From Crambe crambe (lineage: Eukaryota > Porifera > Demospongiae > Poecilosclerida > Crambeidae): a stretch of DNA of 64,000 nt. The stretch is taken from the NCBI GenBank assembly GCA_963924555.1, contig OZ004588.1, positions 4,960,001 to 5,024,000 of the forward strand, read 5' to 3'. Below the pieces are notes generated by a model that saw nothing but the letters and a program-made list of their open reading frames with translations, did no database searches and was not told where the DNA came from. Positions 38,101-59,279 of this stretch are shown here, in pieces (the first letter of the stretch is position 1; each line of letters begins with the position of its first letter). A program made the position numbers and the translations under genes.

Positions 38101-40402
38101 ATGACTATTTCTCATGATATTGTGTTTGACAGCCTGGATGCAAACCTTATTCAAAGAGCTGCTATAAGGACCAGTGGTGCAGCTGGTCTCTCTGGGCTTG
38201 ATGCATTTGCCTGGCGCCGTCTGTGCACATCTTATAAATCTGCCTCCACCAATCTATGCAAGGCCATGGCTGCTGTGGGCCGCCGGATCTGTACCTCCCC
38301 TATTGATCCTCTATCTATATCTGCTTTTGTTGCCTGCCGTTTAATTCCTCTTGATAAATGCCCTGGAGTTCGCCCCATTGGCATAGGTGAAATCCCACGG
38401 CGTATTATCTCAAAGGCCATCCTATGGATTCTCTCAATTGACATCGAATCAGCAGCCGGGCCCCCTACAAACATGTGCAGGACAGGTGGGAGGCTGTGAG
38501 GCAGCTATTCATGCAATGAAGAAGATATACCAGAACCCCGAGACTGAGGGCATTCTGCTGGTAGATGCTGAAAATGCATTTAATCGCCTTAATAGATCTG
38601 CTGCTCTCCACAACATCAAGTGCCTGTGCCCTCAATTCAGTACCGTCCTGTCAAACACCTACTCAGATCCAGTTCGAATGGTGATCCCCGGCAGTGGTGA
38701 GATATGTTCAAGTGAGGGTACCACTCAGGGTGATCCCTTGGCAATGGCCATGTATGCATTAGCAGTCACCCCTCTGATAGGTAAACTATACCACCTCGTG
38801 CCAACTTGCAAACAAGTATGGTATGCAGACGATTCCACTGCAGCAGGCTCCATAGGTGATCTCAGGAAGTGGTGGGATGAGATCTTCATATTAGGCCCAG
38901 GATATGGGTATTTTCCAAATGGTATTAAAACCCATCTCATTGTGAAAGCAGAATATGCAGAACAAGCCCATTCTCTCTTCTCTGGAACAGGCATTGAAGT
39001 GACAACAAGAGGCCACAGACACCTTGGAGCAGTTGTGGGATCAGCAGCCTTCAGGGAAGAGTATGTAAGGAAGCGTGTTGATGAGTGGGTCAATGGAGCA
39101 GTTGTGGGATCAGCAGCCTTCAGGGAAGAGTATGTAAGGAAGCGTGTTGATGAGTGGGTCAATGAAATTCGATGCTTATCAAAAATCAGCCAAACACAGC
39201 CTCATGCAGCTTATTCAGCTTTTGTACATGGTCTAACGGGTCACTGGTCTCACGTAATGCGTACAATTCCTGACATCAGCCACTTACTAACCCCCCCTAG
39301 AGAATGTCATCCATCAAGAATTTATACCCTCACTCTCTGGCAGACCCGCCAGCTCTTGGAGAGGAAGATTTTTGCACTGCCAGCAAGACTGGAGGGATTA
39401 GGTCTCATGAATCCTGCTACTTGTTCAGACTGCACTTATCAGTTTTCAATCAAACTAACAACCCCAATGGTGGACTTAATAGTTTCTCATCTGGTGAGGT
39501 AGATCTGGAGAATACACTATCAGCCAAGAAAGAAATCAAAGAGCTGACTAGACTATCTGCCATTCAACAGGCAAGTGATCTTGACGAGGTTTTGGATCAG
39601 TACCAAAAAAGACTCCTGACCTCGTGCAGGGATAAAGGGTCGTCCATTTGGCTCACCTCCTTACCCATTGAGGAACATGGTTTCCACCTACATAAAGTGG
39701 AATTTAGGGATGCACTTTGTTTGCGATATGGATGGACCATCCCCAACACTCTTCAATTCTGTATTTGCGGAAACAAATTTGAAATTGACCATGCTCTAAG
39801 CTGCAAGAGAGGTGGCTTCATGATCCAGAGGCACAATGAACTTCGTGACTTTACAGCTACCCTCCTAACTGAAGTGTGTCATAATGTATCCACAGAACCC
39901 CACTCCAATCATTGCAAGGAGAAATTTTCAATTATCGAACTGCTAACACTGACTCTGAAGCGAGGCTTGATATTAAAGCTAGAGGATTCTGGAACCGAGG
40001 CCAGGATGCATACTTTGACGTTACCCAAATGCTCCCAGTTATCGCTCCCAGGATCTGACACATTTATATCGAAGGAATGAACAAGAAAAGAAGAGAGAGT
40101 ACAACCAGAGAGTCCAGGAAGTAGAGGCCAGTGTGTTCACCCCCCTCGTTTTCTCCACCTCAGGCGGCATGGGGAAAGAGAGCAGTGTGTTCTACAAGAG
40201 ACTAGCTGATTTTTTATCCACGAAAAGAGACATGCCATACTCAAGGACAATGGGATGGCTTCGATGCCGCCTCAATTTTGCCCTACTACGCTCTGCCATT
40301 TTATGCATAAGGGGTTCTAGATCAACAAGAAAAAATCCACTTCTCGAAACTGACATTAATCTTGCCTCAGCAGAGAGCAGACTGTCATCAGACCCTGATT
40401 GA
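38101..40402 (+). pseudogene. Reverse transcriptase / RLE polyprotein of the LINE, frame-disrupted
   Basis: Coding similarity runs from TISHDIVFDSLDANLIQRAA through the RT domain to the C-terminal block GGMGKESSVFYKRLAD...WLRCRLNFALLRSAILCIRGSR. It shifts between frames about three times, so no single full-length product can be made. A 69-bp in-frame tandem duplication (39026-39163) adds 23 residues after the RT domain. Confidence 0.8.
39026..39163 (+). repeat. 69-bp perfect tandem duplication in the LINE coding region
   Basis: The unit coding GAVVGSAAFREEYVRKRVDEWVN minus its last residues is present twice, at 39026-39094 and 39095-39163, without visible difference. Confidence 0.9.
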
Positions 40403-40664: not shown

Positions 40665-42500
40665 CTACTCACTTTGAAATGAGTCATTTTGACCACTTCT
40701 TCGTCCATTTTCGATATGGTGTGCATGTTCCCGATCACTGTCCACACTTATCGACTCATCCCCATATTCTTCAATTTCAAAGTAACCTCTACGTCTCCAG
40801 TGACAGATGGATCGTATATCAGTGGCCTTTGCCCACTTCACTAACACAACCAAGACTCTTATAGTAGCATAGAGAAGAGGCAGTCCCATGATAGCATATA
40901 TGACTGAAAACAGAAAATATGTCCATGGAGCCGTATGATTATTAGTCGCCACTACTGAGAATAGACTTGCTACTCCAAAGCTGATAAAGAAAGCGATATC
41001 AAGATAAGTGTAACAATTTTGTTTGTATGGTCGGAAGAAGCATAAAATTCCTATTGCCAATCCATGAAAGACTGCCATTATAACATGTGCTTTTACCATG
41101 GAGTCTAATTTCGTAAAGATAAGGAGCATGATAATGCGAAGGAAGAGATAGAAGGTGGAAAAGAGACGGTGATCACGATTTTCCTTAGAGCCATCATTGA
41201 AACAGTCGCAAAATGCTTCAACAAACATTTGGACGTTGTTTGACCTCACAGAGATCAAATTCAGCTTATCTTGAAAAAATGTTATCTGGTAGAGAAGCAG
41301 CAATAATGTAGGCGCTACTACAAACAGAGTTAGCATGATCAGAGATAGAACAGCAACTGGAGCATGGTCTTGATCGAAGTATTTCACATCTGGCTGCAAA
41401 TACAAAACACTGGTTGGATTTGATTCTTTACAAAATTCATGTACTGTCACCTTCTTGAACACATTTGCGAATACAAAGACAACCTTGGTGTATGATAGTA
41501 TTATTAAGGTAGCTAAGAAAGAAATAATGGTTCGCTTTGGGTCATTGGTGACTGGGAAATGTGAAAGGCATCTTTTAAATGGTCGCCATATCAACACTAT
41601 AGGCTTAAATCCCCTCTCATGTAATTCAATAAAGAGCCATGCGGACAGAGTTAGCATTGCTGGATAAATGACAGACACATACTGCAGTGCCATCACTTCT
41701 AGATTATTGAGGTTAGTGTCAACACAAAAGGACGGTAGTGCACTTCGAAAGAAGTCTAGATTCCAAAATCCATAACAGGTCTTTATTAGCCTGATGTAGT
41801 ACTCGGCCCCATTGCAGGCATGGCTGTATATCGACTCTGACCCCAGTGATAATATTGAAGTTGTTAATTGTGAATGAAACACAAATGCTTTCATATTTGC
41901 TTTGGTGGGTGATACTTGGAGAAACATAATGATGATAAGGAAAACGGTAAGAGGAACCAGTTCAAACAGGAAGTACAAGAACCAGCCACTGTATAGAGTA
42001 TCGTGGCAGGGATAGCAAGCCATATCCAGAGTAAATACACTTGGACCATAATTCTCATTGGTACACTGAGAGCAATACTGACCTGTTCTATGTAGTTGTG
42101 AACATGTAAAGTTGTTCACTTCCCCAAAAGTTACGCCACTGAAGTTGATACTTTGATAGTAATGCACCAAGTGGTTTTCACGATCTTTAGCTATGTCATA
42201 AGGACAGGGGACAATGTTTATGTTCTCATCATCAGAAGTCATACAGTATCCAAGCTGTAACAATGAATAGCTACTTTTCTCAATGACTGGACTATCTTTG
42301 CATTTACAAAATGAACACCGATGATTACTAGTCTCATTGTAGAACCACAGAGGACAATGAGAGTCTTCTGGTACGAGAGTTTTGCCTCGACAATTGTGGC
42401 CAGCTGAACAATGATTCAAAGTAGTCAGGAAGACACAAAGTATGAAGAACACCGGTGACAACTTGAGAGCAGAGAAAAATAGACCCATTATCAGATTCAA
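40665..42500 (-). CDS. Cys-rich multipass membrane protein, unnamed family (member 1)
   Basis: One open frame of 611 residues without introns. A signal peptide (MNLIMGLFFSALKLSPVFFI start, ending near HCSA) is followed by an extracellular Cys-rich part with GYCMT, PCPYD and the module RTGQYCSQCTNENYGPSVFTLDMACYPC. About eight TM helices follow, the first being GWFLYFLFELVPLTVFLIII. A loop before the later helices reads FVEAFCDCFNDGSKENRDHRLF. The cytoplasmic tail is acidic and His-rich. The same layout is seen in the genes at 53729 and 57082. I recall similar uncharacterised proteins in sponges and cnidarians but know no function. A possible donor (GTGAGT) just before the stop leaves open a short further exon. 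Confidence 0.85.
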   Translation of the reverse strand: MNLIMGLFFSALKLSPVFFILCVFLTTLNHCSAGHNCRGKTLVPEDSHCPLWFYNETSNHRCSFCKCKDSPVIEKSSYSLLQLGYCMTSDDENINIVPCPYDIAKDRENHLVHYYQSINFSGVTFGEVNNFTCSQLHRTGQYCSQCTNENYGPSVFTLDMACYPCHDTLYSGWFLYFLFELVPLTVFLIIIMFLQVSPTKANMKAFVFHSQLTTSILSLGSESIYSHACNGAEYYIRLIKTCYGFWNLDFFRSALPSFCVDTNLNNLEVMALQYVSVIYPAMLTLSAWLFIELHERGFKPIVLIWRPFKRCLSHFPVTNDPKRTIISFLATLIILSYTKVVFVFANVFKKVTVHEFCKESNPTSVLYLQPDVKYFDQDHAPVAVLSLIMLTLFVVAPTLLLLLYQITFFQDKLNLISVRSNNVQMFVEAFCDCFNDGSKENRDHRLFSTFYLFLRIIMLLIFTKLDSMVKAHVIMAVFHGLAIGILCFFRPYKQNCYTYLDIAFFISFGVASLFSVVATNNHTAPWTYFLFSVIYAIMGLPLLYATIRVLVVLVKWAKATDIRSICHWRRRGYFEIEEYGDESISVDSDREHAHHIENGRRSGQNDSFQSE

Positions 42501-43984
42501 AATGTGAGCAATAGTAGATAGTTCAGCTCTAAGAGCATAGTTCTATAACCAGTAGCTGTATAGTTATGAAGCTGAACAGAACATAGAAGTACTCTGATGA
42601 TCCCAGTATTTTGGGTAATGTAGCTTGCTAGCTATAGCTATAACCTCTGTATAGAGTTACTTATCAGAATACCCAGGAGCTATACTAATAGTGTAGCTAG
42701 CTGATAGCTATAGCTTTTCCTCCAGGTATTATCTACTGCTTACATTGAGTGAATTTCCCAACTGATTTGTTTACACTATGAGAAAGTCCCCTAACACTGA
42801 AAGTTTTTTTTCCTTGAATACAGATGCACTAAAACCAACATTCAATGAGTATTCAGAGAAATCCCCCTATTCTCTGGGTCTCTATATATAGACTCGATGG
42901 TATTAAAATAGAAGACACACAGCTACCACATTAATTCCATAGTTACCAGCACATACATGGTTTCTATGGTTAGTTAGCTAGCAAGCTCTAGCCATTATAC
43001 TGAGTAGCTATTGGCTATATTATTATTATCTACTTTGTAATCAAGAAAACTGAAACCATCATTAAAGTCATCACATGCATTGTGTGTGTATGCGTGTCGT
43101 ATGCCATGTGTGTACACAGCTGTCTGATCATGCATGGTTTGACTGCATGGAAAATCCCTTGCATCACAGTATTTTGATTTAGGAGACATCATAATGACTC
43201 ACAGGTCAACTAGCTAGACATTACAATCACCATAAATCAAGGAACATCATAGACCCTCTGAATAAAGAAACATGATCCATTGAACTTTTCATTGTTTCGA
43301 GTTTTGCCTTACCTCCGTATGAGATAAAAAATAATATCGTCCATTGCAAGAGGATGTCCAGAGGTTGTGAGGTTTTCAGGTGGATTGATATAGCAATTCA
43401 TGTTCAGTCATGCACATCTAGAATTCATGATTAAATTGTTAGAAAGTGATGGAGCATTCACAGAAGCACAATAGTTATATATTGCTCTATCAGTGTTGGA
43501 TACAATTCCGAGTTCAGTGTTAAACTCTTAGAGTATGTGTGTCATATTATCAACCAGCCTGACAACCTCAGTAGTAGCTAATCTTGATAATAGCTATAGC
43601 CAATAGCTAGTACAAATACCAAGTCTCCAAGTGATGTTTTCATGGTCATGCAGTCACTGTCTATGCCACTAGGTAGCTATAATAGTCTTCTTTGTCTTCA
43701 AGGTGAGACCTTTTAATGCCAGATTGCCTTTAAAGTATGTTTAGAAGAAATTATGATCAGCTTTGAAGGAAACTTAGTGGACTAAGCTTTCAGGAGTTCT
43801 AACCAGAAGTAGTCTAGTATGAGGTAAGGGAATGACCATGAGAAGAGAGAAAGTGAGTTTCGGTTGACAGAGGGAGAAAGTCTTATCGACTGATCTCAAT
43901 TCACTTCTAAAAATCGTTTTTGTACTGTTATAGCTAATTAAAATGAAAAGCACTGAAGTGCTAACTCTCAGTGCACACTAAGAG

Positions 43985-44351
43985 CATAGGCTCCAACTGT
44001 CCTTAAATCTGAAGGACAGTCCTTAATTTTTAGACTCTGTCCTTCGTCCTTCAATGGCTTGCTACTGCCCTATTGTTTGTCCTTAAAGTTGTCTAGCCAG
44101 CAAACTATGCAAGCTTGCAGTTGTAGTTACAGCACATTATAATTATTATGGGCCTGGCAAATATGCTCTGCTGGACATGTGCAAGGTCATCTGCTCTATT
44201 TATAGCTATGAGGTCAGCTGTGCATACTTATTTATTCCATTATTGTGGGTGTGGTTGGGGCACGGTTATGTTAATTAGGGGCGTGGTGATTAAAGTATAG
44301 ATGGGTGTGGTTTGTGTCCTTAAAGGATTTTTAGAAAAGTTGGAGCCTATG
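43985..44351. mobile_element. MITE with 14-bp terminal inverted repeats
   Basis: Ends CATAGGCTCCAACT and AGTTGGAGCCTATG are perfect inverted repeats, flanked on both sides by TAAGAG (43979-43984 and 44352-44357). Inside are several GTCCTTAA/GTCCTTCG words. No ORF; non-autonomous DNA transposon of unassigned superfamily. Confidence 0.8.
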
Positions 44352-44424
44352 TAAGAGTCAATAATATAATTGTGTGCTTGCAGATGTTGAGCAGATCATC
44401 AATGAGGATACTCCACTGTTGAGC

Positions 44425-44820
44425 TAGCTAGCAGTGTCTGTACTACAGAATCCACATTATCTAGTCTGGCGTCGCCAGCCCAGCTTTTCTTCTTTTTTTT
44501 GGGAGACAGGGAAGAAGCTTTTCTTCCCCGTCCCAAAAAAAAAAAAGAAAGAAGAAAAGCTGGGCTGGCGACGCCAGACTACACATTATCATCAGTGCCA
44601 TGTTAAAATAAACTGTTTGGAGAACTCCACGGATATGATTAAGCATGCAGGTAAGACATGCATAAAGCCGTCGTAGACTTGATACTCCAGCTAGCCATGA
44701 GATTTATCCTGTTGCATGCTCTAATCAACTCAACTCAACTTGAGCGAGCCTAGCTGGAGTAGGTAATGGTCGGCAGCACAGTGTGCATTATATGGAGTAA
44801 GCCTACATGCTATAACCCTT
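44425..44820. repeat. Dispersed repeat, copy B
   Basis: GTCTGTACTACAGAATCCACAT, TTTGGAGAACTCCACGG, CCGTCGTAGACTTGA and GTAGGTAATGGTCGGCAGC match copy A (37780-38065) in order. The foldback at 44462 is inserted in it. Confidence 0.6.
44462..44581. mobile_element. 120-bp foldback element with 9-bp target-site duplication
   Basis: Arms TAGTCTGGCGTCGCCAGCCC and its complement GGGCTGGCGACGCCAGACTA extend into AGCTTTTCTTC / GAAGAAAAGCT, so nearly the whole element is a hairpin. CACATTATC flanks it directly on both sides (44453-44461 and 44582-44590). Confidence 0.88.
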
Positions 44821-45003
44821 GCGCATGCGCAGAGGTGATAGCGTACTATTCACAGTATTTGTGAAACTACTATGTATGATATCAGACCATCAGACATGGA
44901 GAACTTTTTGCAGCAGCTACGGGTATACGGATGTTATTATAGCTATGATGATTATTCAACCAATAATTTTTTTTTTAAATTCAGAATCAGCACTCTGTCT
45001 CAT

Positions 45004-48000
45004 AAGACCCAATGGTGAGTAGGCATTCACTTTTGTTGGACAGCTTTAAACGAAGCATGTTGTAGAGGAAAGCACCTTTAGTTTCGAACCAGTTATCAAT
45101 GTGTTCCATGACTTGATCAGTGGTAAGGAAGTCAGTGGTTCCATTGACAGTGGCTCGATAAATGGAATAGGTAGGTGGACTGGCATCTGAACTCCCCAGA
45201 GTAGATGGACCTGGAGGTGAAGTTACAATTACAACGCTCCCTCACACACTCTCCCACTCTCCAGTTCTCTCTGTATGGATTCTTCCACAAGTAGAGCTGT
45301 CCTCACCTGTAAAAGTAAAAGACAAGCTAAAAGTAATAACATTCTACAGGCAAGCTTGTAGCTGTACCCAATTACATCATTCAATAAATGTTATAGCCAT
45401 GAATAGAACTGCAAGTTGCTATTCATGGTATGTAGCTATTCACTCACATCCAGTGGTACGGCCATAGCTACCATCTGGGGAAAGCCCTCCAGTAAAATTT
45501 GATTCAATTTCAATCTGGTATGATCTAGGCAATGCCATGTACAACTTATAAGTCTTCAAATTGCATACACATACATGTACACACACACAAAACAAAACAA
45601 AAACTCTGAATGGTGGTACGGCCATGGCCGTACCAGCTGTAGCTGTCCATGAGGTATAGTGGATATATCTTCAGCTGAAAAATAGTTTGACCTGTGAGTC
45701 AGTGTGTCATATATTACAGGTACCCAGGCCTATTCTATATAGCTAGGGCCTCCCCCTTCTCTGTAATGGCCTGGAGCTATTGTGTGACTTGGTTGTGTCT
45801 TCATCCATGGGATGTGGGACTGCTGCCTTGTATAGCTAGCCCTTTATCAGAGTTCAGTACTGAGGGAGACAGTTGACGTATTTCCTTGGGTCCTTACCAC
45901 ACCCACAGTCACATTCCTTCCACTTGTCAGGACAGTTCCTTTAGGCCCCACCCACTCCACTGAAGGGGGGAGTTTCATTCCAGGAATCGTTGTCATGGTG
46001 CAGAGTAAGATATGGTTGTCGAGGTGGAGAGCAGCCTTGCCAGTTTGATTACTGACTCTAATTTTACACTAATCATCACAAGTTAATATAATGTGCTGTG
46101 GCCAGCTAGTCACCCTTGGGATCTGGGACTGGGACTAGTAGGTGGCCCTTTTACCTAATAAGGTTTAAGTTCTCTCCTGGGACTTTTATCTTGACCAAGT
46201 GCCTCCAACCTGTTTCAGTGTATAAAGTGCATGCTCCCATTTTCAGTTTTACCATGAATTTCAGTCATTTTATAAGTAGCTATAATGTTTGTATATAGTA
46301 AATTTACCTTCTTTTTTTTTTGCAGTATTTTCAGTCAAATTTCTAAAAAATACAGTATAGTTGGAGGCTCTGTTGACCAGTGGACTGCTAACTCAAGGTG
46401 ACCGCTAAGTTAGAGCTGTACAGTAGCTAGAGATTACCTTGAGGGTGTTGTATGGTAACCGAGTTGTTCAGAGTAGCACACTGAGAAGTAGTTACTTGAC
46501 ACCAATAAACTGTTTCTTCTGTAGTTATTGGAACCGAGATGGATGTGAGAAAAGAGTTGATATGACTTTCAGAATGCCACTCAATTGATGAATGATAAAA
46601 AGCACTTGAACATTTGCAAGTGAAATCTTCTCCAACAATAAAGTCATCATAATCACATTCAATCCATACAGCTACACATACACAAATAATAGGGATAATA
46701 TCAGAGAGTGCACTAGCACTCTCTATGTTTACTACTATTATTACTATTTTGAGGCTGAAAAATTTGTGTCATCTCTACATCAGTTATTGTCATTTAAGAT
46801 TTCCATCATTACAGAGAAGCAATATTATATTCTATATTATATGCAGTGATAATATTATTATAGCTAATAATAATTCCAGCTCTCAGACTTCAGCAAGCTA
46901 ATTACATCATATTGTTGCTGTTTACTAGAAGTCTCAGTGATTTACCTTTAATAGTGTCTCTATTGGTTCCAAAAAAAGTTTCCAACTTCACAAGTAATAT
47001 TTTTTGGACAATCAAATTCTGATGTTGTTAGTCTAAGAGTAATTTCATAATGAGAAGCTAGTCTATCTGTGACTTTTGTAGTCATTTTAATGGCATCTCC
47101 ATCAATTTCCAACCTCTCACCATCTTTGAACCAATTGATATTTGTAGGAGGAGCATTTTGAGTCTTGCAAACAAATGTCGTTGTGTCACTTTGCTCCAAT
47201 TGGTATACGGAAGGGAAACCTATTATGCATAATAATACACCACTACGTACATCATCATAACAATGGCTATCAAACTATGACGTTATATAGCCCATTATAG
47301 CAATACTATCCTTGCACTAGCTGATGGGACTTACTTCACCATAGAGTCCAATATTAGTAGATATACGGTTGCCATTGGTGTCTGATGTGGTACATGTGTA
47401 TATCACTGGGTAATAAATAAAAAGGAACGATGTCATATATAGTTTCAGTTTGGTAGGATAATTCACTGCAGCCGGCATATTTCCGACTGGTATGTTGAAT
47501 TATATCCACTATACCAGCTCTTGTATCATAACGACCACTACTTCGTACATGACCATTAGGAAATGTGAAATTTCCCTTAGAGAGACTTGAGTTGGAGCAA
47601 CATATCATTCTAAGCCTGAAGTATCTATCAGTGTCGGAGTTTGACTCTCCTAGATCAACAATATCATAACTGTTCTGTGGTTGTGCTCCAATTGTGCTGC
47701 CATATAACGGCTATTTAACATCAAAATTAGCTCTTTTTATACTCACCAAATACATTCATTGTAGTACTATTACTCCCTGTATTGCCTGCTTCATCTCTCA
47801 CACTACAAGTATGCACTCCAGTAAAATGACCTCTCAGTATCCTTATTAAAATACTGTTGAGTGATCGTCTATGAGCATAACAGTCGATCTCTACAAGTGG
47901 AGGTCCATTTTTAAGTGACAGAACCAGTGGAACCAGAGACCACACAGGTAAGACGGACTGATGAGCAGCACGATAGTTGGGAGGAGAGTAGTCAGGGTAC

Positions 48001-48876
48001 TGATCAGGAGGTGTGTAGGAGATTTATTTATCAACAAAACAAACTATAAATGGATGGGACAACAAGCATACATGCCAAGTTCATAGCTACCCCACCATTA
48101 TGAACTTGCTTGGGATGCTGCTGCATATAGCTAGGTTAATAACCTGTTTTGAAGGTAGTATTTGCATTCAATTCACTGCCACACACAGACAATGAAGAAT
48201 GAATGGATCGTGCAGAAGAGAAGCAAGTGTATTTCCCAGAGTCAGATGATTGTAAGGAGTTAAAATGGAGAACAGAGCTGTATTGGTTCCTAGAACCAGT
48301 GACTCCACTGATTATTCTGCCATTACTGCCTGAAGTAATCACACCAGAGGGTCCCTCCCACCTGTGGGTCACGATCACTGGCGTATCCACTGCTGGATCC
48401 AGGTAGGTGGTGCATGTAAGGTTAAGCTGATTGGTAGTGAAGAGTTGTTCATCATTTGGATTGTGTGTTATGCGAACATTAGTGGAATTTACTATAAGAA
48501 AACAAGAAAAATTCCATGGTGCTTAGCTAGCTGTCTAATAAATTCTTACTCCTGACTTTGAGATGCTTAATGATTCTCTTAGAAGAGAAACGAGTTGAGA
48601 TGCAAGTATAGACTCCTTCATGTGAAGTCTTGAGAGGTTTAAAGTTCAAAACTAGTCTATAGTTATATTCCCAACAGTGACTGAATCGTCTGTTCTCACG
48701 TCAGTTCCTGTAGTCAGTACTTCATTATTGTTGGGATCAACCCACTTGACCATTGGGGTGAGGTGAGAAGTAACAGTACACACCAGGAAAGTATTTCTGC
48801 CTGCTTGTAAACAGGAGTCCTCAGGACCATCGATACTCATTATAGGCTCCAATTCTGAAAGACAGAGCAAATACAT
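45004..48876 (-). pseudogene. 3' exons of an Ig-superfamily gene, with several frame disruptions
   Basis: Ig-like exons continue from the 48989-52675 gene: exon 6 (about 48856-48550), exon 7 (48491-48144, intact; HRWEGPSGVITSG, SGKYTCFSSA), exon 8 (about 48010-47752), exon 9 (about 47705-47338), exon 10 (about 47213-46941), exon 11 (46671-46438, intact; ITTEETVYWCQV), one near 46020-45893 (LLCTMTTIPGMKLPPSVEWVGPKG) and a last exon near 45210-45004 (YSIYRATVNGTTDFLTTDQV). Exon 6 shifts frame near 48656; exon 8 shifts around the YRAAHQSV / RLTCVVSGSTG boundary and has a stop before KWTST; exon 9 shifts before YTCTTSDTNGN; exon 10 shifts at a T7 run before GTNRDTIK. Exons 8-10 mirror exons 2-4, so a tandem unit is present. 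Either a decaying gene or assembly error. No TM helix seen. Confidence 0.65.
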
Positions 48877-48988
48877 TACACAGCCACTGCAAGTGCAGAT
48901 ATTATTAGGCTGATATTATGGCAAGAAACTACATAGTTATAGCTAATGATTACTAGACAGAGATAGACAGACAAACAGGAGTTCATAC

Positions 48989-51900
48989 CCTTGACTTCGA
49001 GAGTAATAGTCTCTTCAAAAACTTCCCTACCACTGGTTACAAGTCTACATGTAAAAATGGTTCCATTTAAAGTGGTGTCATTGAGATTGAATGCAATGCT
49101 TAGACTCTGTCCTCCATTTTGTCTCTTCTCCACTTCCATCTCCCCAACTCGTACCCACTCCATCTTTGTGATAATAACATCACACAGAGTGGTGGTGCAG
49201 GTGATGTCTCTTGGCGTACCAACTATTACTGGGGACTCATGACCACTCACTTTAAGAGCTGAAATGATATTATAGTTTGTTTTATGATAAGTATCCTAAT
49301 GGAGGATGCTATTTAGGGTACAGCTGTTTATGACTATGCTTAATGGAAGATAATTGCTGTTGTGTTAGCGAACTATGTAGTTGGGCATACAGAACAGAAT
49401 TGACTGATATAATAGCTAGCTATACATGCGCCCACACATACAGTGTAATCTTGGTTATCTTACTCTGGATTTGTACATTTGTAATGGATTTTAACAATTA
49501 TTTTCTTGAGTGGTTTGCACAGGCACATAATAATTAGCAACTAGCTATAAGTAGTATCTACACTGTTCTAGGTTTACTAGCCCATAATATTAAACTATAC
49601 AACACAGCATAACCACAACACATTACTTCAATGCAGCCTGGAAAAAAAGTTTGGACAAAGGTGCCTGGATAGCGGGTGTCTTGATTCGGTGGAATGGACT
49701 AGTGGAATGGAATAGTGGAATGGAATACTGGAATGGTGGAATGCTCTAAAACTTAAAGGCTTATTTCATCATGATCGTCCAGCGCGTTCAACTTTGGAGA
49801 CTTCAGTGGCTTGCTCGATTTGCATGCTAGCCCCGTTCCCTGGCACGTACATGCATGCACTTTGCAGGCAGATCGAAAAAGGTACGCGTGGGAGGAAGAG
49901 AAGAAGAAGAAGAAGAAGAAAATTTAAGCACGTGGCATTTGGTTGTTGTGTGAAGTTTGGTAACAGTTAGGCTAATCATGGTGTATCTATGGGCTGATCA
50001 TAGCTTGACTCTTAAATCTGTTGACTCTTAAATCTGTGATTGCTAGCAACAATTGTACCAATTCAGATGCATCAGTGTGATGCAGTTAAAGGTGGATATA
50101 GCTAGCAGCTTTGTGTTAAATATAACCATGAAAAAATTGCTTTTGCAGAGGGTTGGAGTGCACAACACAAGAGATGTGATTATGTTGATCACCTATAGTT
50201 CCCTGAGGATGTTTGCTGAGTAATGAATGAAAATACATATCTACATATCACTTGAAGGTAGCTAATAGGCATGCAGCTCTTGAGTATTGTATCTGTCATA
50301 TGCTGAATCCCACATCCACATTCCATATTACCATCTGGTCAGACTGATACTGTAGCTATAAACTAATATTACTCAACATTTCTAGATATATAGCTACTCA
50401 AAAAAATGATGCCAGCATTATTTATCTGGGATCTTACAAGTTCTATATTAGGTTTCAGTAATAACAATCACTTAATTAGCTATCATACATGCAATTGTTG
50501 GTACGGGCATGTTTGTTAGCATTGAAGAAATGAATTATAGGTTAACTGGGCCTAATAGCTAGCTAGCTACTAGCTAGATCAATAGTATTGGTAGTATTCT
50601 AGTCCAGTATTCCATTCCACTGTTCCCAATCCATGGCCCTACTAGCTACCTTCAAGTGATATGTAGATATGTTACTCAGCAAACATCCATAGTAGTAGTC
50701 AACATTATCAACATGATCACGTCTCCTCTTGTGCACTGTATTCCAATCCACAGGCCTATAGCTACTAGCTACCTTCAAGTGATATGTAGATATATTACTC
50801 AGCAAACATCCATAGTAGTAACAGGTGATCAACATGATCATGTCTCCTCTTGTGCACTCCAACCCTCTGCAAAAGCAATTTTTTTCATGGTTATGTTTAA
50901 CACAAAGCTGCTACATCCACTTTTAATGCTGATATATGCTATAGATTCCTGCATCTGAATTGGTACAATTGTTGCACAGATTTAATACCCATGCAATAAT
51001 AGAACATGGAAGCCAAAGTCGGAACATGTGTTAATAATCTAAATCTTAGATTCCAGTATATTCCCATTCCACCAATCTAGACAATAATGTGCTGGATGAT
51101 CTTGATAAGGTATGCCCTCTGAAGCATTCCACCATTCCAGTATTCCATTCCACTATTCCATTCCACTAGTCCATTCCACCGAATCAAGACACCCCTGGAT
51201 AGCCGAGGTTCGACTGTATTGTTGCATGCAGGAAAGAACTCTGTACTCTAAATAGCTACGTATTATGATCCCATACTAGCTATTAGGGTAATAATCTCAC
51301 CAGTTACAACTTTCCCAAGTGAGTTAGAAGTCCCTAAACTGTTAACTACAGTGCAGTTATACTTTGCAACCACATTATCAGTGGTACTCTTAATGGTAAG
51401 CATGTTATTATAGGTTGAAGTGGTACGATTCACGAGTGTCTGAGTGACTTGGTAGCCATTATGGGATTTGTTTGTGAGTCTCTCATCATCTTTCTCCCAG
51501 ATGATTTTGGTAGGAGGAGAACCGTGGGACAAGAAGGAGATAGTGAAGGGAATGCGAGGAGGAGAGTGGCAGAAATTAGTTAAGAGAGGAGGTTCTGAAA
51601 GATAATTAGAAACAGAATCAATAGAAGTTAGTTAGCAGGAATGACACTATTTAATATTATATAGCTAGCTATACCTGATTCAGAAGCACGATAAAGCCCA
51701 AAGTTAAAGTCAACTATATTTCCGTTCTCATCTGGTGTCCGGTAGGTGTAGATTCCAACATCATCGGGCTTTAATGGCCTCACACTACGAACATACAGTG
51801 ATCCTGGGTGGTGTGATCCTCCTCGAATAACTAAGAAGGGGTCAGAGTTTGAATGAGTGAGGTCATTCCCAAGAGGACCAATCAAGTTCCCAGTATTAAA

Positions 51901-52675
51901 AATGGAGGATCCCGAGAGACAGTAAAAATTAGGAATCACAAATCTTGAGTTAGTAGTCATAAGGCTGTTATTGGGGAGAACCTGTCCACCATCTGAATCC
52001 ACATAAATGCCAGCTCCTGAAAGAATAATACAGCTTTCCATAATGTGGCTGGTAAAAAATAGAGCAAGTTTCATTCCTAAGCATTAAACCTTGCTACTTA
52101 CCTACAACTCTGACAGTGATGTTAGCATTTCCACTGCAACCTTTTACTGTATCATATACTGTGCATGAGTGGACACCATTGTCTGTGGACTCGAGATATC
52201 GTGCAAAAACGGTCTTTGTGATCAAATTAGTCACAAAACTGTTGCCAGTGGAGGTCCAATGATAAAGGAGGCTATCATTGTTCTCTACTCCTTGCACTTC
52301 ACAGGTGAGAGAGAGGGAACTGGCAGCACGATAAAATGGGGGGTCAAGAGAAAAGGATGATGGTGGAGTGTACTTTGGCTCAATGTTAACTTCCAACTCT
52401 GCATATTAATCATCAATTGCATCATGCTACAACTATAGCATGTAAGCATCAGTATTATTTGCATGACGGGAGCTTCATGCAATATTAGTTCTAGTTAGTT
52501 ATAATTATGGTCAGTTATAATAGCTGTAGCTATATTATAGCTATAGTAGCTAGCTAGCTTGTTAGCTAATGATATTTTTGTAAAGACCTGTACTGCATGG
52601 CTGAGCTGCAGCTGGGAGCACTCCAGAAATCAAGATCAGAACAAGAACAAGGCTAAGTATCTCTGGTTTCATCAT
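48989..52675 (-). CDS. Ig-superfamily surface or secreted protein, intact 5' exons
   Basis: Five clean exons: 52675 to about 52588 or 52594 (signal peptide MMKPEILSLVLVLILISGVL; two donors fit), 52398-52102, 52016-51675, 51594-51301 and 49258-48989. All join in phase. Exon 2 is a classic Ig domain (YRAASSLSLTCEVQG, GVHSCTV). Exon 3 is an unusual Ig-like unit: RFVIPNFYCLSGSS, then PGSLYVRSVRPLKPDDVGIYTYRTPDENGN and FGLYR. Exon 4 is Ig (KIIWEKDDERL, AKYNCTVV), and exon 5 is Ig (MEWVRVGEM, TIFTCRLV). The transcript should run on into the exons at 45-48.9 kb, which carry frame disruptions. A 2-kb intron (51300-49259) holds a large foldback element. No named family recognised. Confidence 0.75.
49674..51194. 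mobile_element. 1.5-kb foldback (Mutator-like) element with 9-bp target-site duplication
   Basis: The first about 70 bases (GGGTGTCTTGATTCGGTGGA... with repeated GGAATGG words) are matched perfectly as inverted repeat at the other end (...CCGAATCAAGACACCC). Imperfect pairing continues for roughly 600 bp per arm, for example CACTTGAAGGTAGCTA near 50250 versus TAGCTACCTTCAAGTG near 50645, and AACAATTGTACCAATTCAGA near 50050 versus its complement near 50960. CTGGATAGC flanks both ends (49665-49673 and 51195-51203). No transposase frame. Confidence 0.85.
50640..50860. repeat. Direct duplication inside one arm of the foldback element
   Basis: AGCTACCTTCAAGTGATATG, ACTCAGCAAACATCCATAGT and GTCTCCTCTTGTGCACT occur twice (from about 50643 and 50767), offset about 124 bp. 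The other arm has this segment once. Confidence 0.8.
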
Positions 52676-52679
52676 GTTC

Positions 52680-53728
52680 AGTAGCTGTATCTCAGCGGCT
52701 TCTCAAATATTTATGGGGGAGGGGGGTGGTTCATGTAGCTATGCCTATTATTATTAACATTTCCTGTTTTCAACAAAACACGCACCAATATTAAGGGTGG
52801 TGGCACACATGGTTGCATATCTCCAAAACTACTTGCACCATAGACTTTAAACGGCTATAGCTAAGTAGCTTAGTAATGCTACACACACAGAAAAAGGTCA
52901 AATCCTTGAACAGTATTTAAACTACTTCTCACCAACCACTAAACTTCACTGGCTGATTTTTGGCACTACTCTCTAAAAAATTACAGAAGGATTTGTTGAT
53001 ATCTATTTTACTTCTCAATTTAGCCCAGGAACTTGAATACTCACTTTTGGGAAGTCAAAAAGTAAAGTAGATACCTTCTGTAATTTGTGGAAGGGGCTAC
53101 TAAGAAGCTTTAGGCCAAAAATCAGTCACTTAATTCCAGCAGTTGGTGAGAAGTAATGTTTTTTATCTCTAAAGAGTAAAAAGACTCAAAGCACCTGTAA
53201 GAATCAACCTTTTCCCTTCATTTTAGTGTGTGTAGCTATTTACTAGCTACCTTATAGCTCAGTGCAATTTTGAAGTCCATAGCTACAGTAATTTTGGAGA
53301 TTTACTTGTTAGCACGTGTGTTGCTATGTGGCACCACTCTTTGAAATCATTCAATGGCATTTCAACTGCACCATATCCTGCCACTTATGGAGAAAAAAAA
53401 ATTAAGTTTAGGATAAAACTTTCAAACTAAGCCATACCATACTGGATCAGCTATTAATTTTAATAACCTTGCTAGCTATTACTAAACATTTATGACAACA
53501 CAAGGAATAGCTATGGGGTAAGTTTATAAAAAAAGCATGAAATGGAGAAATGTCACTGATAGATTCTACATTATTAATAGCTAGCTACATAGAAAGAGCT
53601 ATATATTGCTCTTCTGATGCCACTTATTTAATATTGCTTGTTGATACGTACAGTATATTGATATCACTCATTGTAATAATTACAATAACAAATGCAAGTT
53701 GAAAATAATTATTGTTACAAAAAAAATC
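52680..53728. other. Gap between the Ig gene start and the next multipass gene
   Basis: It holds the Ig gene's promoter side and an inverted-repeat element. The remaining AT-rich sequence shows nothing. Confidence 0.5.
52790..53346. mobile_element. Imperfect foldback/MITE, about 0.55 kb
   Basis: AAGGGTGGTGGCACACATGG at the left pairs with CCATGTGGCACCACTCTTT-like sequence (GCTATGTGGCACCACTCTTT) at the right. TATCTCCAAAACTA pairs with TAATTTTGGAGATT, and ACTTCTCACCAACC with GGTGAGAAGTAA nearer the centre. The arms are diverged, so it is old. Confidence 0.7.
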
Positions 53729-55522
53729 TTAATATGGAATAGTATCATATGTGAGCATATCATGTCTTCTGTCATTATCAGTTCCATGTCTTAGCAAAGG
53801 AGTGTAATTGTTATTGATTTCTTTGTGGCAACACTGCTGGCATTTCCTTTGAAACAGCTGCACAATATCAGTGTTGGTTTTAATCCAGCAAAAGGAGTTG
53901 AAGCTGATATATGCAGTCATGAATATTGTAGGGAGCAAAGTAATCACTTCAGCAATCATAATGTAAATGTCTCCCATGCCAACTAACATAAGGAAAGACA
54001 CACCAAGTAACCAAATCAGAACTGCGTCAAAATGGTTCATGATTGCTCTCTTATATGGCCAAAAGACTGCAAAAAATAAGCCAGTTACTTGAAAGACCAT
54101 GCTTGGGAGAAGCCACACATGAGAACCTCTATATAGTATCCCTGTAAACACCAAAACCCAAACTGAAACTGCCACTTTGAGAATGGGAAATATTGCAGAT
54201 ACAAACCGATAATCGAGTGATGTCCCTTCGACACCGTTTTTGAACCAACCTTGGAAGATGTCCATGAAATAGTTTAAGGAATGCCACTTTGAGCGCAGGA
54301 TGAATTTCAAGAAGAGGACAAATGGCTTAAAAGGATACAGGACAAAAAGTATGATGGGAAGAATCACAAATACGGAGAGAATAAGCATGGCTGTTATGGC
54401 GTATGGAATGTGTTCATGCTGGAAATATTCCACAGTTGGATCGTAATAGAGAGTCCACTTTTCAATCACCTGGTCACCCCTGACTTCATACACCTTGTTT
54501 GGGATGAGAAGATTGAGAGAAATAAAGAGTATCTTTGTGTAGATGAGGTTTAAGAATGCTGCAAATGTATTGGCTATGTTGATGTATGGATCTGCTCTTC
54601 TTAGACACCTTTGGGAACACAAGGAGGTGACCATTCTCCGTATTAAATTCCAAACAAAGACAAAGGGTTTGAAGTTTCTGTTGTACAAGGAAACACTAAC
54701 ATAGACAATGATAATCAGAAACAATGGAATTGCAGCTTCTACATATTTCAGCATCATCAAATGGATTCCCTTAAGTGATGAGGAATCGATACATAAATTT
54801 GTACTGAAGAGATCAATTCTGAAAATCCCATGATCCAAACTAAAGAACCCAAAGAGAGTAATTAAACTATCATACAATACTACATTCGATACTCTAATAG
54901 TGTCCCTTCGTAATGTAGAATCGTAGTCGATTCCATAAAAAATTACTTGGCAGAAGAGAATCCAAACATTCCAAGGGCTTTTAGAAAACTGGACATTGAA
55001 TATCATAATGATAAGCAGCAAAATGATGGAAGGGAAAGTCTGTATCATAAAATACTTAAACCATCCAAGTGGACACTTAATGCACTGTAAAGTACTCGAC
55101 ATTGATGGTCCATATCCATCCATGCATAGCCCACACAACCTTCCCCTACGCTTATATCGTCCACACATGTTTTCTTGCATCTCTGATAAATTTGAAGAAA
55201 TAATCAGTTTGTCACATTCTCTGAAAAAATTATATGGACATCTCCCTCCAAAAATAGAATTTACTTTCTGATTGTAACTTATACAGTAGCCTTCAAGGAC
55301 AGTTATCCAATCTTCACTTTTATTGTAGCAATGAATATGTTCCTCAAGTTCAGGGAAAAAATCACACCCACTATTTTTTGTTGGGGTATGGTTGAAAATG
55401 TTCTGAGGATAAGATCCCACAGAATTTTCTTTTTCTTCAGTACGTGCCTGCTGGAGGCTTTTACACTGAAGAATTGCTGCATAAAGGACACTAGTAATGG
55501 TTAGCAATGCTGAAATCTCCAT
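53729..55522 (-). CDS. Cys-rich multipass membrane protein, unnamed family (member 2)
   Basis: One open frame of 597 residues without introns. A signal peptide (MEISALLTITSVLYAAILQC) leads to an extracellular part with NxS/T sites and cysteines ending in NMCGRYKRRGRLCGLCMDGYGPS and LQCIKCPLGW. Then come TM helices, the first around FPSIILLLIIMIFN. Conserved loops read LYNRNFKPFVFVWNLIRR, YDPTVEYFQHEHIPYAI and FMDIFQGWFKNGVEGTSLDYRF. The C-terminal tail is short with Cys/His (KCQQCCHKE). It is a close tandem copy of the gene at 57082, with whole blocks identical, and a distant relative of the gene at 40665. Function unknown; topology suggests a receptor or channel-like protein. Confidence 0.87.
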   Translation of the reverse strand: MEISALLTITSVLYAAILQCKSLQQARTEEKENSVGSYPQNIFNHTPTKNSGCDFFPELEEHIHCYNKSEDWITVLEGYCISYNQKVNSIFGGRCPYNFFRECDKLIISSNLSEMQENMCGRYKRRGRLCGLCMDGYGPSMSSTLQCIKCPLGWFKYFMIQTFPSIILLLIIMIFNVQFSKSPWNVWILFCQVIFYGIDYDSTLRRDTIRVSNVVLYDSLITLFGFFSLDHGIFRIDLFSTNLCIDSSSLKGIHLMMLKYVEAAIPLFLIIIVYVSVSLYNRNFKPFVFVWNLIRRMVTSLCSQRCLRRADPYINIANTFAAFLNLIYTKILFISLNLLIPNKVYEVRGDQVIEKWTLYYDPTVEYFQHEHIPYAITAMLILSVFVILPIILFVLYPFKPFVLFLKFILRSKWHSLNYFMDIFQGWFKNGVEGTSLDYRFVSAIFPILKVAVSVWVLVFTGILYRGSHVWLLPSMVFQVTGLFFAVFWPYKRAIMNHFDAVLIWLLGVSFLMLVGMGDIYIMIAEVITLLPTIFMTAYISFNSFCWIKTNTDIVQLFQRKCQQCCHKEINNNYTPLLRHGTDNDRRHDMLTYDTIPY

Positions 55523-57081
55523 AACTAGCCTTTTCTGTTAGCCATCTAGCTACTGCAGTCTGCAGGACTTTTATAAGAATAAAATTACTGATGACATAAT
55601 CATGCATGATAATAATTAGCTAAGCTTATTCTTTATTGATTTTTGGATGTGTTCTCCAAATTTTGTGTGGTAAATTATTTTGTTATTATAGCTAAATTAT
55701 GAATCCCAACATCACGGTATTATCTACAGTGGGTGGACTATTTCTTGATATTATTCCCCACAAAATATTGCATTATATAGTTATGGTATGTAACTGAAAT
55801 GGAATACATGGTCTATATAACTATATAATGTTATATAGAGGGTCATGGTGTACGTGCCCAGATTGATTGGAGTAGCTATTTCCTCTGCAGTATTACACAA
55901 TTAGCTACAACTCTGTTTGTGTATATAGCACAAATCACCACCATTCATGGTACTTTAATGTTACATTATAACCACACACGAACAGCCACCTGCATTCCTC
56001 CAACTTTCCTTCATAAACCTGCACAAATGCGGAAACCATGCATGCAGCTATTTCAACAAACAAAACTTCACTATAGCCATCACCACCTGCACTGTATGCA
56101 TGTGAACTAGCATGAGGCTCTGTAATAGTGTGATAGTAGCACGCATGGTGAATTCAGGCCTCCATGCATGCATACAAGAGCAACCAGCATCCTACAATAA
56201 TATATGGTGGATAAATTAAGCCTGTGCACTCTATGCAATGCAACACACACATACGTAGCCATGCATATAGCCTTTCTCCAGCCATTAAATGTATGATAGC
56301 TAGCTACGTAAGGATTATTGCAGGAGTGAATGATGGAGATAATTTTATGGTTAAATCGATAATGCATATTATCCATAGCTAGCTAGCTATTTGCAATGCT
56401 TGGTTGGATTGTGGCGTACTTTTCATCCACTTGTGTCCCTATCGTTATATTGTTCTATCTGCAGCGCTTGTTCCAACCTTCATAGCTACTGTACACACCC
56501 TTTTCCCCTTAATACAGTGGAACCTCCGATAAAGGACCCTCCAAGAAAGGGACAGCCTCTCTACAAGGGACACCTTTCATGTCCCCAAAAGTTAACTCCC
56601 TATAGTGCTAATACATTGAGAGAGGACAACCTCCTTACAAAGGACATCCCAAAGCGTCCTTTATTTGGAGGCTCCACTGTATGCCCAAAAGTATAGCAGC
56701 TCTGCATGTATAGCTCCAGATGTCACAGCCTTGTTTAAATTTGTTGCCTGACATGCTCTGTATTCAAGTTCAAGGAAAACACTAGCTGTACGATCAGCAA
56801 TAAATTAATAGCTCATGCACATGCAGTCTGTAGTTATATTGTGGCAGGATCAGTAGACTAGGTATGTAGCTAGTTACCCCTGGAAATTTGAATCATTCCA
56901 ATTTAGAGTTAAAAAAAAAATAATTAAGCAAAGGGTCCATATAAAGATATCTGGACAAAATAATAATCAACTGTAGCAATCATCAACTCATTAAAATTAT
57001 AGCTACAAAACTCACATAATGAATACATACAAAAGACTTAGTAATAGCAATACAAAAGAATAAGCAATAGCTACACAAGAG
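55523..57081. other. Intergenic gap between the two tandem multipass genes
   Basis: Apart from the MITE at 56515 no feature is recognised. The sequence is AT-rich with TAGCTAGCTA words (56378-56389). Confidence 0.5.
56515..56679. mobile_element. MITE with TA target duplication (mariner-type)
   Basis: Ends CAGTGGAACCTCCGATAAAG and its imperfect complement near CTTTATTTGGAGGCTCCACTG form terminal inverted repeats, flanked by TA at 56513-56514 and 56680-56681. A diverged relative lies at 7669-7765. Confidence 0.82.
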
Positions 57082-58887
57082 CTAGTGTATTATGGCATCA
57101 TAATCACGTGAGCATAGCATATCATCAGCTCCATGTGAAATCAAAGGAGGGAGATTATCGTCATCATGATTCTTGTGGCAGCAATGTTGGAACTTACTTT
57201 GAAACAACTCCACGATATCAGTGCTGGTTTTAATCCAGCGAAGAACTTTGAAGCCAATACAAACAGCCATTAATAGTGGAGGGAGCCAAGCAACCACTTC
57301 AGCAGTCATAATATAAATGTTTCCTTTTCTATTTAACATAAAGGGTAACAAACCAAGTAACCAAATCAAAACAGCATCTAATTGGTTCATGACTGTTTTC
57401 TTGTATGGCCTAAATATTGCAAAAAATAAGCCAGTTACTTGAAAGACAATGCTTATAAGAAAACATGCATGGGAACTATCTGTGAATGCAAAAAAAACAA
57501 CTAAAGCTGCCACTTTGAGGAGGGGAAAAATTGCAGACACAAATCGATAATCGAGTGATGTCCCTTCGACACCGTTTTTGAACCAACCTTGGAAGATGTC
57601 CATGAAATAGTTCAAGGAATGCCACTTTGAGCGCAGGATGAATTTCAAGAAGAGGACAAATGGCTTAAAAGGATACAGGACAAAAAGTATGATGGGAAGA
57701 ATCACAAATACAGAGAGAATAAACATGGCTGTTATGGCGCATGGAATGTGTTCACGCTGGAAATATTCCACAGTTGGATCGTAATAGAGAGTCCATTTTT
57801 CAATCACCTGGTCACCTCTGACTTCATACACTTTGTTTGGGATGAGAAGATTGAGAGAAATAAAGAGTATCTTTGTGTAGATGAGGTTTAAGAATGCTGC
57901 AAATGTATTGGCTATGCTGATGTATGGATCTGCTCTTCTTAGACACCTTTGGGAACACAAGGAGGAGGTGACCATTCTCCGTATTAAGTTCCAAACAAAG
58001 ACAAAAGGTTTGAAGTTTCTGTTGTACAAGGAAACACTAACATAGACAACGATAATCAGAAACAATGGAATTGCAGCTTCTACATATTTTATCATCATCA
58101 AATGGATTCCCTTAAGTGATGAGGAATTGATACATAAAATTGTACTGAAGAGATCAATTCTAAAAATCCCATGATCCAAACTAAATAACCCAAAGAGAGG
58201 CATTAATATTTCACAGGATACTTCATAGAATGTGACATTAGATACGTTAGCAGTTTCTCTTCGTAATTTAGAATCGTAGCCGATTCCATAAAACATTATT
58301 TGGCAGTAGAGAATCCAAGCATTCCAAGGGCTTTTTGAAAATTGGATATTGAATATCATAATGACAAGCAGCAAAATAATGGAAGGGAAAGTCTGTATCA
58401 CAAAATACTTAAACCATCCAAGTGGACACTTAATGCACTGTAAAGTACTCGACATTGATGGTCCATATCCATCCATGCATAGCCCACACAACCTTCCCCT
58501 ACGCTTATATCGTCCACACATGTTTTCTTGCATCCCCGATAAATTTGAAGAAATAATCAGCCTGTCACTTTCTCTGAAAAAATTATATGGACATCTCCCT
58601 CCAAAAATAGAATTTTCCTTCACATCATAAGTTAAACAATAGCCCTCAGAGATATTTAGCCAATCTTCACTATTATTGTAGCAATGAATATTTTTCTCAA
58701 GTTCAGGCAAAAAATCACACCCATTATTTATTATTGGGTTATTGTTGGAGGTATTCTGAGGATGAAATCCCACAGAGGTTTTTTTACTGATCAGGCTTTC
58801 TTCAGCAAGTGGCTGCTGGAGGCTTTTACACTGAAGAACTACTGCACAAAGGACACTAGTAATGGTTAGTAATGCTGAAATCGCCAT
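57082..58887 (-). CDS. Cys-rich multipass membrane protein, unnamed family (member 3)
   Basis: One open frame of 601 residues without introns, a tandem duplicate of the 53729-55522 gene. It starts with signal peptide MAISALLTITSVLCAVVLQC. The Cys module NMCGRYKRRGRLCGLCMDGYGPS is identical to its neighbour's. The TM core and loops (RNFKPFVFVWNLIRR, FMDIFQGWFKNGVEGTSLDYRF) are nearly unchanged. Differences cluster in the N-terminal ectodomain before the Cys module, in the loop after the second TM helix, and in the last third with the C-terminal tail. Confidence 0.87.
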   Translation of the reverse strand: MAISALLTITSVLCAVVLQCKSLQQPLAEESLISKKTSVGFHPQNTSNNNPIINNGCDFLPELEKNIHCYNNSEDWLNISEGYCLTYDVKENSIFGGRCPYNFFRESDRLIISSNLSGMQENMCGRYKRRGRLCGLCMDGYGPSMSSTLQCIKCPLGWFKYFVIQTFPSIILLLVIMIFNIQFSKSPWNAWILYCQIMFYGIGYDSKLRRETANVSNVTFYEVSCEILMPLFGLFSLDHGIFRIDLFSTILCINSSSLKGIHLMMIKYVEAAIPLFLIIVVYVSVSLYNRNFKPFVFVWNLIRRMVTSSLCSQRCLRRADPYISIANTFAAFLNLIYTKILFISLNLLIPNKVYEVRGDQVIEKWTLYYDPTVEYFQREHIPCAITAMFILSVFVILPIILFVLYPFKPFVLFLKFILRSKWHSLNYFMDIFQGWFKNGVEGTSLDYRFVSAIFPLLKVAALVVFFAFTDSSHACFLISIVFQVTGLFFAIFRPYKKTVMNQLDAVLIWLLGLLPFMLNRKGNIYIMTAEVVAWLPPLLMAVCIGFKVLRWIKTSTDIVELFQSKFQHCCHKNHDDDNLPPLISHGADDMLCSRDYDAIIH

Positions 58888-59279
58888 AATCTAGTTATAA
58901 ATGCACTCTGCATGACTCCAAGAACTCTTATAAGGAAGAGCTACTGATGATATAATCATGCACAATTATTATGCTCACTCTTTATGTGCATAGCTAGCTA
59001 CTTGTAGGAAATTTTGAAATTTGAACCTTACTCCACACAATACAATACTTCTAATATTTATTTCACTGAGTAGGGCTTTCTATTACATAGCTAATAATGC
59101 ATAATGCACGAGTATAATTATGGCAAACAGCTGCTTTCCTTCAACTTTCCTCCACAAACATGCAAGAATGTAATGCAGAAACCATGCAGCTGTTCCAACA
59201 AACAAAACTTCACTAGCTATAGCCATCACCCACCCACATTGTCTCAATCCTACAATCTAGCTATATTTATACATTGAGG

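Follow-up and report, generated by a model that had tools for sequence, protein, structure and literature searches.

The nearest described architecture to that of the genes treated here appears to be that of the cysteine repeat modular proteins (CRMPs), with homology compared by description only. As far as the available part of PMC9815656 goes, nine membrane passes and Cys modules of EGF or ephrin-receptor type occur together in the CRMPs of Toxoplasma and Plasmodium, the legend of an architecture figure names parallel beta-helix repeats, Dictyostelium is said to have homologues whose predicted membrane part is similar, and the family is termed apicomplexan-specific, with few copies per parasite genome and many reported in Chromera. 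The accessible text of PMC9670195 describes apicomplexan and ciliate CRMPs as acting in exocytosis, proposes them as contact sensors and calls CRMPa G protein-coupled receptor (GPCR)-like; it gives five predicted passes for Tetrahymena CRMPs and does not count CRMPs among the bona fide GPCRs. In sponges, tandem clusters of surface receptors are known from the Rhodopsin and Adhesion GPCR expansions of Amphimedon (PMC4302439, in the part available). Here we analyze three intronless genes, W1, W2 and W3, of the sponge Crambe crambe, which lie in a window of 64,000 nucleotides (GenBank assembly GCA_963924555.1, contig OZ004588.1, positions 4,960,001 to 5,024,000), together with the family to which they belong.

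We propose that the sponge has a very large, lineage-expanded family of nine-pass surface sensors and that these three genes belong to it as members with a short ectodomain, a reading to which we give an even chance. The expansion in a sponge genome, the division into short and long forms and the lack of a family model that matches the membrane part make the family worth specialist attention.

Three genes of one family

Each of the three genes is one open frame (coordinates in Table 1), as a sequence-only reading of this DNA had held, and W2 and W3 are arranged in tandem. They have a common layout of a hydrophobic N-terminus, a Cys-rich stretch and a multipass body, and the Cys module adjoins the first membrane helix on its N-terminal side, again as had been said. 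The shared signal peptide of that reading holds as far as the hydrophobic N-termini go, and the peptide itself is probable from hydropathy: 36 of 42 family proteins have near the N-terminus a 12-residue stretch with a mean hydropathy of at least 2.0, and the remaining six score 1.59-1.98. For W1 the start ATG 42488, giving 607 amino acids (aa), is more likely than TTG 42500.

That the three form one family was borne out by tblastn of W3 against W1 (E 1.7e-37) and by invariant alignment columns. There are 24 such columns in an alignment of 28 members (W1, W2, W3 and 25 further genes of the same genome), including the eight ectodomain Cys and C252 in a later loop. Protein identity of W1 to W2 and W3 is 22-26%. 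The last two had been called near-identical, which they are not: identity is only 79% at the protein level, and the DNA is 86% identical along 1.87 kb (window 53774-55606 aligned with 57121-58962). Upstream, their similarity reaches about 80 bp beyond the coding region; at the other end it is lost 45 nt short of the end of the W2 frame, with the exception of one 107-nt patch. The loop written as D-x-F-x-G-x-F-K-x-G-like is exact in these two genes (DIFQGWFKNG) and degenerate in W1 (EAFCDCFNDG).

Size and clustering of the family

The sequence-only reading had a family of three members in view and missed both its size and its long relatives. Once matches had been merged by position, the 143-Mb genome showed at least 408 loci, spread over 21 contigs; 321 of these loci have a neighbour within 20 kb, against an average of 43 under random placement; a clustered, intronless, multi-copy family of membrane proteins, as first suggested, is what we found. 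The number is a lower bound because the genome searches scored the best candidates only: 73 of 829 with W3 as query, 34 of 841 in another search, 150 of 589 with a 78-residue core segment, and 150 of 241 and 150 of 454 with segments of two long relatives. All 73 candidates scored for W3 counted as matches. An exact DNA pattern for FQGCYK occurred 108 times in the genome and its reversed control 0 times.

The merged list, which takes in truncated copies and to which W1 was added by hand, was made up by hand from all places of four of these searches (that with W3, that with 34 of 841 scored, and those with the core segment and the first long-relative segment), 28 of 150 from the second long-relative search and 53 of the 100 listed FQGCYK places, the remainder being judged repeats by eye. 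Searches with DUF7630 and with the loop pattern of the long forms were only compared with this list; they showed three places absent from it. One of these, on a small contig (G000:C118:7353), is a GC-rich match to the loop pattern and possibly reflects chance or contamination. A profile search for family size and phyletic spread had been proposed earlier. It was answered for size; as to spread, pattern-based scans of viral contigs and prokaryote genomes gave 36 and 21 pattern matches, among which no relative was confirmed. An artefact of retrocopying was ruled out by complete frames, hundreds of copies and omega (dN/dS) below 1. Among the open-licence papers listed in literature searches we recognised none that describes the family in sponges, which is weak evidence of absence.

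Long relatives and their ectodomain

Two matches of W3 fell in long frames (1,335 and 1,412 aa); the DUF7630 search added five more (1,227-1,306 aa). The seven long relatives, 1,220-1,382 aa from the first Met, were inspected in full. A profile of the 28 short members matched each of them along its Cys module and membrane part, from residues 696-788 onward (E 4.4e-19 to 5.4e-126), and no reversed copy or any of 20 shuffles of each long protein matched it at E<=10. W1, W2 and W3 are short forms of this family.

The N-terminal 700-790 residues of the long relatives look like a right-handed beta-helix with Pmp-type repeats, to judge from motifs and profiles. Pfam Beta_helix was over cut-off in two of the six long proteins scanned and NCBIfam POMP_repeat in one of two; another of the six, L040, had no Pfam match whatever. 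The FxxN motif exceeds shuffles in all seven (at most 48 of 500 shuffles as high), and GG[AG]h in six (at most 11 of 500; 111 of 500 for L050). These ectodomains are like chlamydial Pmp proteins (POMP_repeat TIGR01376, Chlam_PMP PF02415) in their FxxN and GGA-type repeats. Unlike them, the membrane part of the family is helical and multipass rather than an autotransporter barrel, and the window genes gave no Beta_helix, Chlam_PMP or POMP_repeat match (Pfam for all three, NCBIfam for W1 and W3). The one long form queried against PDB had no match there.

A tree built from 36 short and 7 long proteins has the short forms on one side of a single branch, whose support is weak (88/72); long branches were flagged. 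With a root among the long forms, the simplest reading would be that the beta-helix was lost in an ancestor of the short forms.

The Cys stretch directly before the first membrane helix is the one part for which a Pfam likeness recurs, that to DUF7630 (PF24633). In a genome search this model was over cut-off at five long-frame places, unlike the whole-protein scan, in which four of six long proteins reached E 2e-5 to 2e-4, at 21.8-25.1 bits against a cut-off of 27 bits. Short members stay under cut-off throughout; nine of the 28 reach E<=1, the best at 0.0033, the consensus has E 1.9, and residues 127-154 of W3 are faintly similar (E 0.31, also under cut-off). Apart from this weak likeness, no Pfam family is common to the members, and the consensus matches DUF7630 alone. 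Isolated weak matches in single members (DUF1218 with E 0.0071, RIG-I_C-RD with 0.025, and others) were taken as chance, each being unique to one member, and so was a Na+/H+ antiporter subunit G model on W3 (E 0.72), which no second member shared.

The beta-helix ectodomains bring up an alternative, namely that these are adhesion or self-recognition (allorecognition) proteins that do not signal across the membrane themselves. The ectodomains resemble adhesins, the copies are many, and exons with immunoglobulin domains lie between W1 and W2. However, conservation is strongest in the membrane core and not outside, a nine-pass body is needless for a pure adhesin, and the short forms retain little ectodomain, so that we consider this explanation improbable.

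Divergence and selection

In which regions do the copies differ? The sequence-only reading had placed the differences of W2 and W3 in ectodomain and tail. The tail part stands, with 59% identity; the last membrane block (residues 456-553), which had been left out, is the most divergent large region (55%). The ectodomain has 77% identity (53% in its first 34 residues and 84% in the Cys part) and residues 346-455 have 97%. Between these two genes omega is 0.60 overall and dS is also raised toward the 3′ end. Omega slightly exceeds 1 in four small stretches with few changes each: the signal peptide (1.28) and residues 23-56 (1.31), 183-240 (1.12) and 521-553 (1.10).

We then relied on nine other recent paralogue pairs, chosen from 46 pairs above 55% identity, with each gene used once and W2/W3 excluded. 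Region borders had been fixed on W2/W3 before the other pairs were scored. The members of these pairs were best W3 matches and requested regions, which under-samples distant subfamilies. Omega was 0.18 for the core and 0.28 for passes 1-4; it came to 0.42 both for the ectodomain (0.32-0.54) and for the tail, to 0.48 (0.38-0.59) for the last helices and to 0.59 (0.28-1.41) for residues 23-56, all point estimates being below 1. The ectodomain had a non-synonymous divergence (dN) of 0.049, compared with 0.114 for the last helices and 0.139 for the tail. Between ectodomain and last helices, the latter had the greater dN in eight of nine pairs, the exception being L013/L015. Divergence biased to the ectodomain, as had been predicted, is not what these pairs show, and diversification driven by the ectodomain was rejected on their regional dN and omega. 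A short fast-changing stretch at the ectodomain start (residues 23-56) is possible.

Silent divergence climbs from 5′ to 3′ in the nine pairs, from 0.117 in the ectodomain to 0.240 in the last helices. This gradient points to gene conversion in the 5′ half, to which part of the contrast in dN may be due; omega differs little. For recent paralogues in L013-L047, silent divergence is about 0.10 close to the 5′ end and about 0.25 close to the 3′ end. With their rapid change beside a fixed core, the last helices are a candidate region for tuning, but relaxed constraint would account for the data just as well.

Membrane topology and comparison with known receptors

Topology was evaluated on 19 non-redundant proteins of 36 members, with N-glycosylation sequons counted against a reversed-sequence control. 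Sequons exceed the control in the ectodomain and in residues 347-372 (counts in Table 1), and Lys plus Arg peak at residues 291-322 (19.9%) and 491-504 (16.6%). Together with the hydropathy profile, these distributions fit a model of nine predicted passes with the N-terminus outside and the C-terminus inside. The multipass body of the sequence-only reading is retained in it; its estimate of about eight helices gives way to nine.

The clustered, intronless, receptor-like character of the genes would also suit divergent ordinary seven-pass GPCRs. PANTHER names presumably related proteins 'G protein-coupled receptor-related' (PTHR11319), an id absent from the literature searched. However, the 28 members at E<=1 and their consensus at E<=10 gave no match to 7tm_1/2/3 or Frizzled, nor to TRP, PKD_channel or Ion_trans, and nine passes fit better than seven. 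The lack of a match to described GPCR, TRP or polycystin models agrees with the first view of the family, and membership among seven-pass GPCRs or TRP proteins was rejected on it. The sponge expansions of PMC4302439 were found, according to its available part, through family models, none of which the present family matches, and neither that survey of Amphimedon nor the choanoflagellate survey (PMC12716839), in the parts available, describes such a family. We see only a slight chance for seven-pass receptors.

Equally slight is the chance that the family consists of ion channels with relatives among the fungal TRP-like/Flc or polycystin groups. The argument for them is a general resemblance in signal peptide, Cys-rich luminal domain and eight to nine passes. 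The unmatched channel models speak against them, as does the absence of a PDB match for the consensus; for the short forms, PDB yielded nothing below E 0.97. The best PDB profile match, the Cys-rich module of EphA4, had E about 1 and was not significant. Cys spacing in the stretch before the first helix is like that of Ephrin_rec_like and EphA4. In contrast, Ephrin_rec_like had no match in the 28 members, and its four genome-wide matches, whose frames span 66-105 aa, lie at no listed family place; it was dropped as a bridge to the CRMPs for that reason. The EGF models of Pfam did not match the Cys module of the family. No match was found for W1 or W3 in PHROGs or for the window in Rfam.

A further alternative is that the family is an animal branch of CRMP-type proteins, that is, contact sensors triggering regulated exocytosis and not chemosensory receptors. 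Like CRMPs, its proteins have a probable signal peptide, a Cys-rich module beside a multipass C-terminal part and, in the long forms, apparent beta-helix repeats; the nine passes, predicted for this family too, the Dictyostelium homologues (both in the available part of PMC9815656) and the GPCR-like CRMPa with its role in exocytosis (PMC9670195, likewise) lend it further weight. Against it stand the apicomplexan-specific label of the former source, the five Tetrahymena passes and the denial of bona fide GPCR status in the latter, and the missing Ephrin_rec_like matches. CRMPs also have larger ectodomains and are few per parasite genome, Chromera with its many reported copies apart, whereas here there are hundreds of intronless animal genes. 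By description, this alternative is a tentative possibility, somewhat on the doubtful side. If the CRMP link holds, the protein class is not wholly new.

Proposed mode of action

For the nine-pass surface sensors that we favour, the following course may be suggested. The signal peptide would export a small Cys-rich module seated directly on the first membrane helix, and nine passes would run from an outer N-terminus to an inner C-terminus. In the long forms the module and membrane part would carry the right-handed beta-helix of Pmp type, whose ligands are probably extended structures outside the cell, for instance surface glycans or microbial envelopes, and the Cys module would couple capture by the beta-helix to the first helix. 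The short forms, having presumably lost the beta-helix, would operate with the Cys module and membrane bundle alone. Contact with a ligand or partner may rearrange the bundle, and the conserved core with its D-x-F-Q-G-x-Y-K loop may relay the signal inward to an effector, for which G protein, ion flux or an exocytosis trigger are our guesses. The family would grow by tandem birth and death with conversion.

Several observations weigh against these ideas. In the reverse test a DUF7630-type profile of long proteins listed just 12 of 36 short members at E<=10 (E 1.4e-18 to 2.5e-30), with no reversed copy matched. Clear positive selection on the ectodomain, often expected of a recognition role, is missing. 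A conserved KNGT in the loop 405-446 scores as a sequon (13 against 4) although the loop is placed in the cytosol, unless the sequon is unused. AlphaFold2 models of the three window proteins are of low confidence, with pLDDT (the confidence score of the models) of 32.6 for the whole and 35.8 for the membrane part only. Open frames are shorter than 450 aa at 42 of 150 core-segment matches (hand count), and therefore many copies may be dead or have introns; such copies suggest birth-and-death turnover.

A sensing role, which the sequence-only reading had also favoured, is our best guess from the sequences. Of its expansion of chemosensory or recognition receptors, the large clustered multigene family stands and the divergence concentrated in the ectodomain does not. 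A bolder version would make a non-GPCR nine-pass superfamily of at least 400 genes the main surface-sensing repertoire of nerveless sponges for microbes, food or self, with beta-helix capture domains in the long forms, short forms tuned mainly via the last membrane helices, and a fold common to the exocytosis sensors of parasites and ciliates; taken as a whole we hold it to be rather unlikely. If the reading as surface sensors holds, this very large sponge gene family is a class of sensors likely to be missed in surveys by domain, since its membrane part had no Pfam match here, and it would bear on how nerveless filter feeders distinguish microbes and on the origin of the contact sensors (CRMPs) of parasites.

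Features of the window genes

Table 1. Positions of the three genes in the window and of the regions of W3, whose residue numbering is used throughout
Feature	Positions	Strand	Remarks
W1	40665..42488	-	single-exon gene, 607 aa; divergent short-form member; long branch in tree
W2	53729..55522	-	single-exon gene, 597 aa; tandem copy of W3
W3	57082..58887	-	single-exon gene, 601 aa; reference for residue numbering
Residues 1-22, probable signal peptide	58822..58887	-	hydrophobic N-terminus
Residues 23-156, short ectodomain	58420..58821	-	invariant Cys 57/84/99/124/134/137/151/154; sequons 67 vs 32 in reversed control
Residues 347-372, probable extracellular loop between passes 4 and 5	57772..57849	-	sequons 13 vs 3 in reversed control; hairpin in low-confidence models
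Residues 346-455, most conserved core	57523..57852	-	omega 0.10 (W2/W3), 0.18 (nine pairs)
Residues 430-446, D-x-F-Q-G-x-[YF]-K-x-G motif	57550..57600	-	probably cytosolic, between passes 5 and 6; K-N-G-T sequon opposes this
Residues 456-553, last four probable membrane passes	57229..57522	-	fastest-changing membrane part
Residues 554-601, probable cytosolic tail	57085..57228	-	variable

Neighbouring genes and other observations

Between W1 and W2, at 48136-52396 (-), lie exon-sized frames with immunoglobulin domains, ig and I-set being over cut-off in two of them; these frames inside the cluster are probably one multi-exon gene of immunoglobulin type. A reverse-transcriptase remnant at 38387-39502 (+) is slightly under the Pfam cut-off (27.5 against 29.6 bits). 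Farther off, four single-frame genes of Ras-family small GTPases stand within 7 kb (8697-9347, 9977-10582 and 11321-11971 on the minus strand and 14998-15618 on the plus strand), and other frames of the window code for a C2 domain (1641-2669, +), a methyltransferase (16874-17542, -) and a D-arabinono-lactone-oxidase-like protein (20523-21041, -).

Elsewhere in the assembly, Wnt domains were detected at 14 places on three contigs, and several Wnt-domain exons in proximity at G000:C18:6387639-6396259 (L053, L054) may form a tandem Wnt cluster. The Wnt genes and the mitochondrial code point to a sponge; code and tRNA content argue against bilaterians, cnidarians and ctenophores, and placozoans are improbable on contig size alone. 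A contig of 19.5 kb with cox1 reads TGA as Trp and has five tRNA genes in 4.3 kb. In this cox1 all 10 AGR codons lie at sites that we take to be Arg, and ATA at sites that we take to be Ile.

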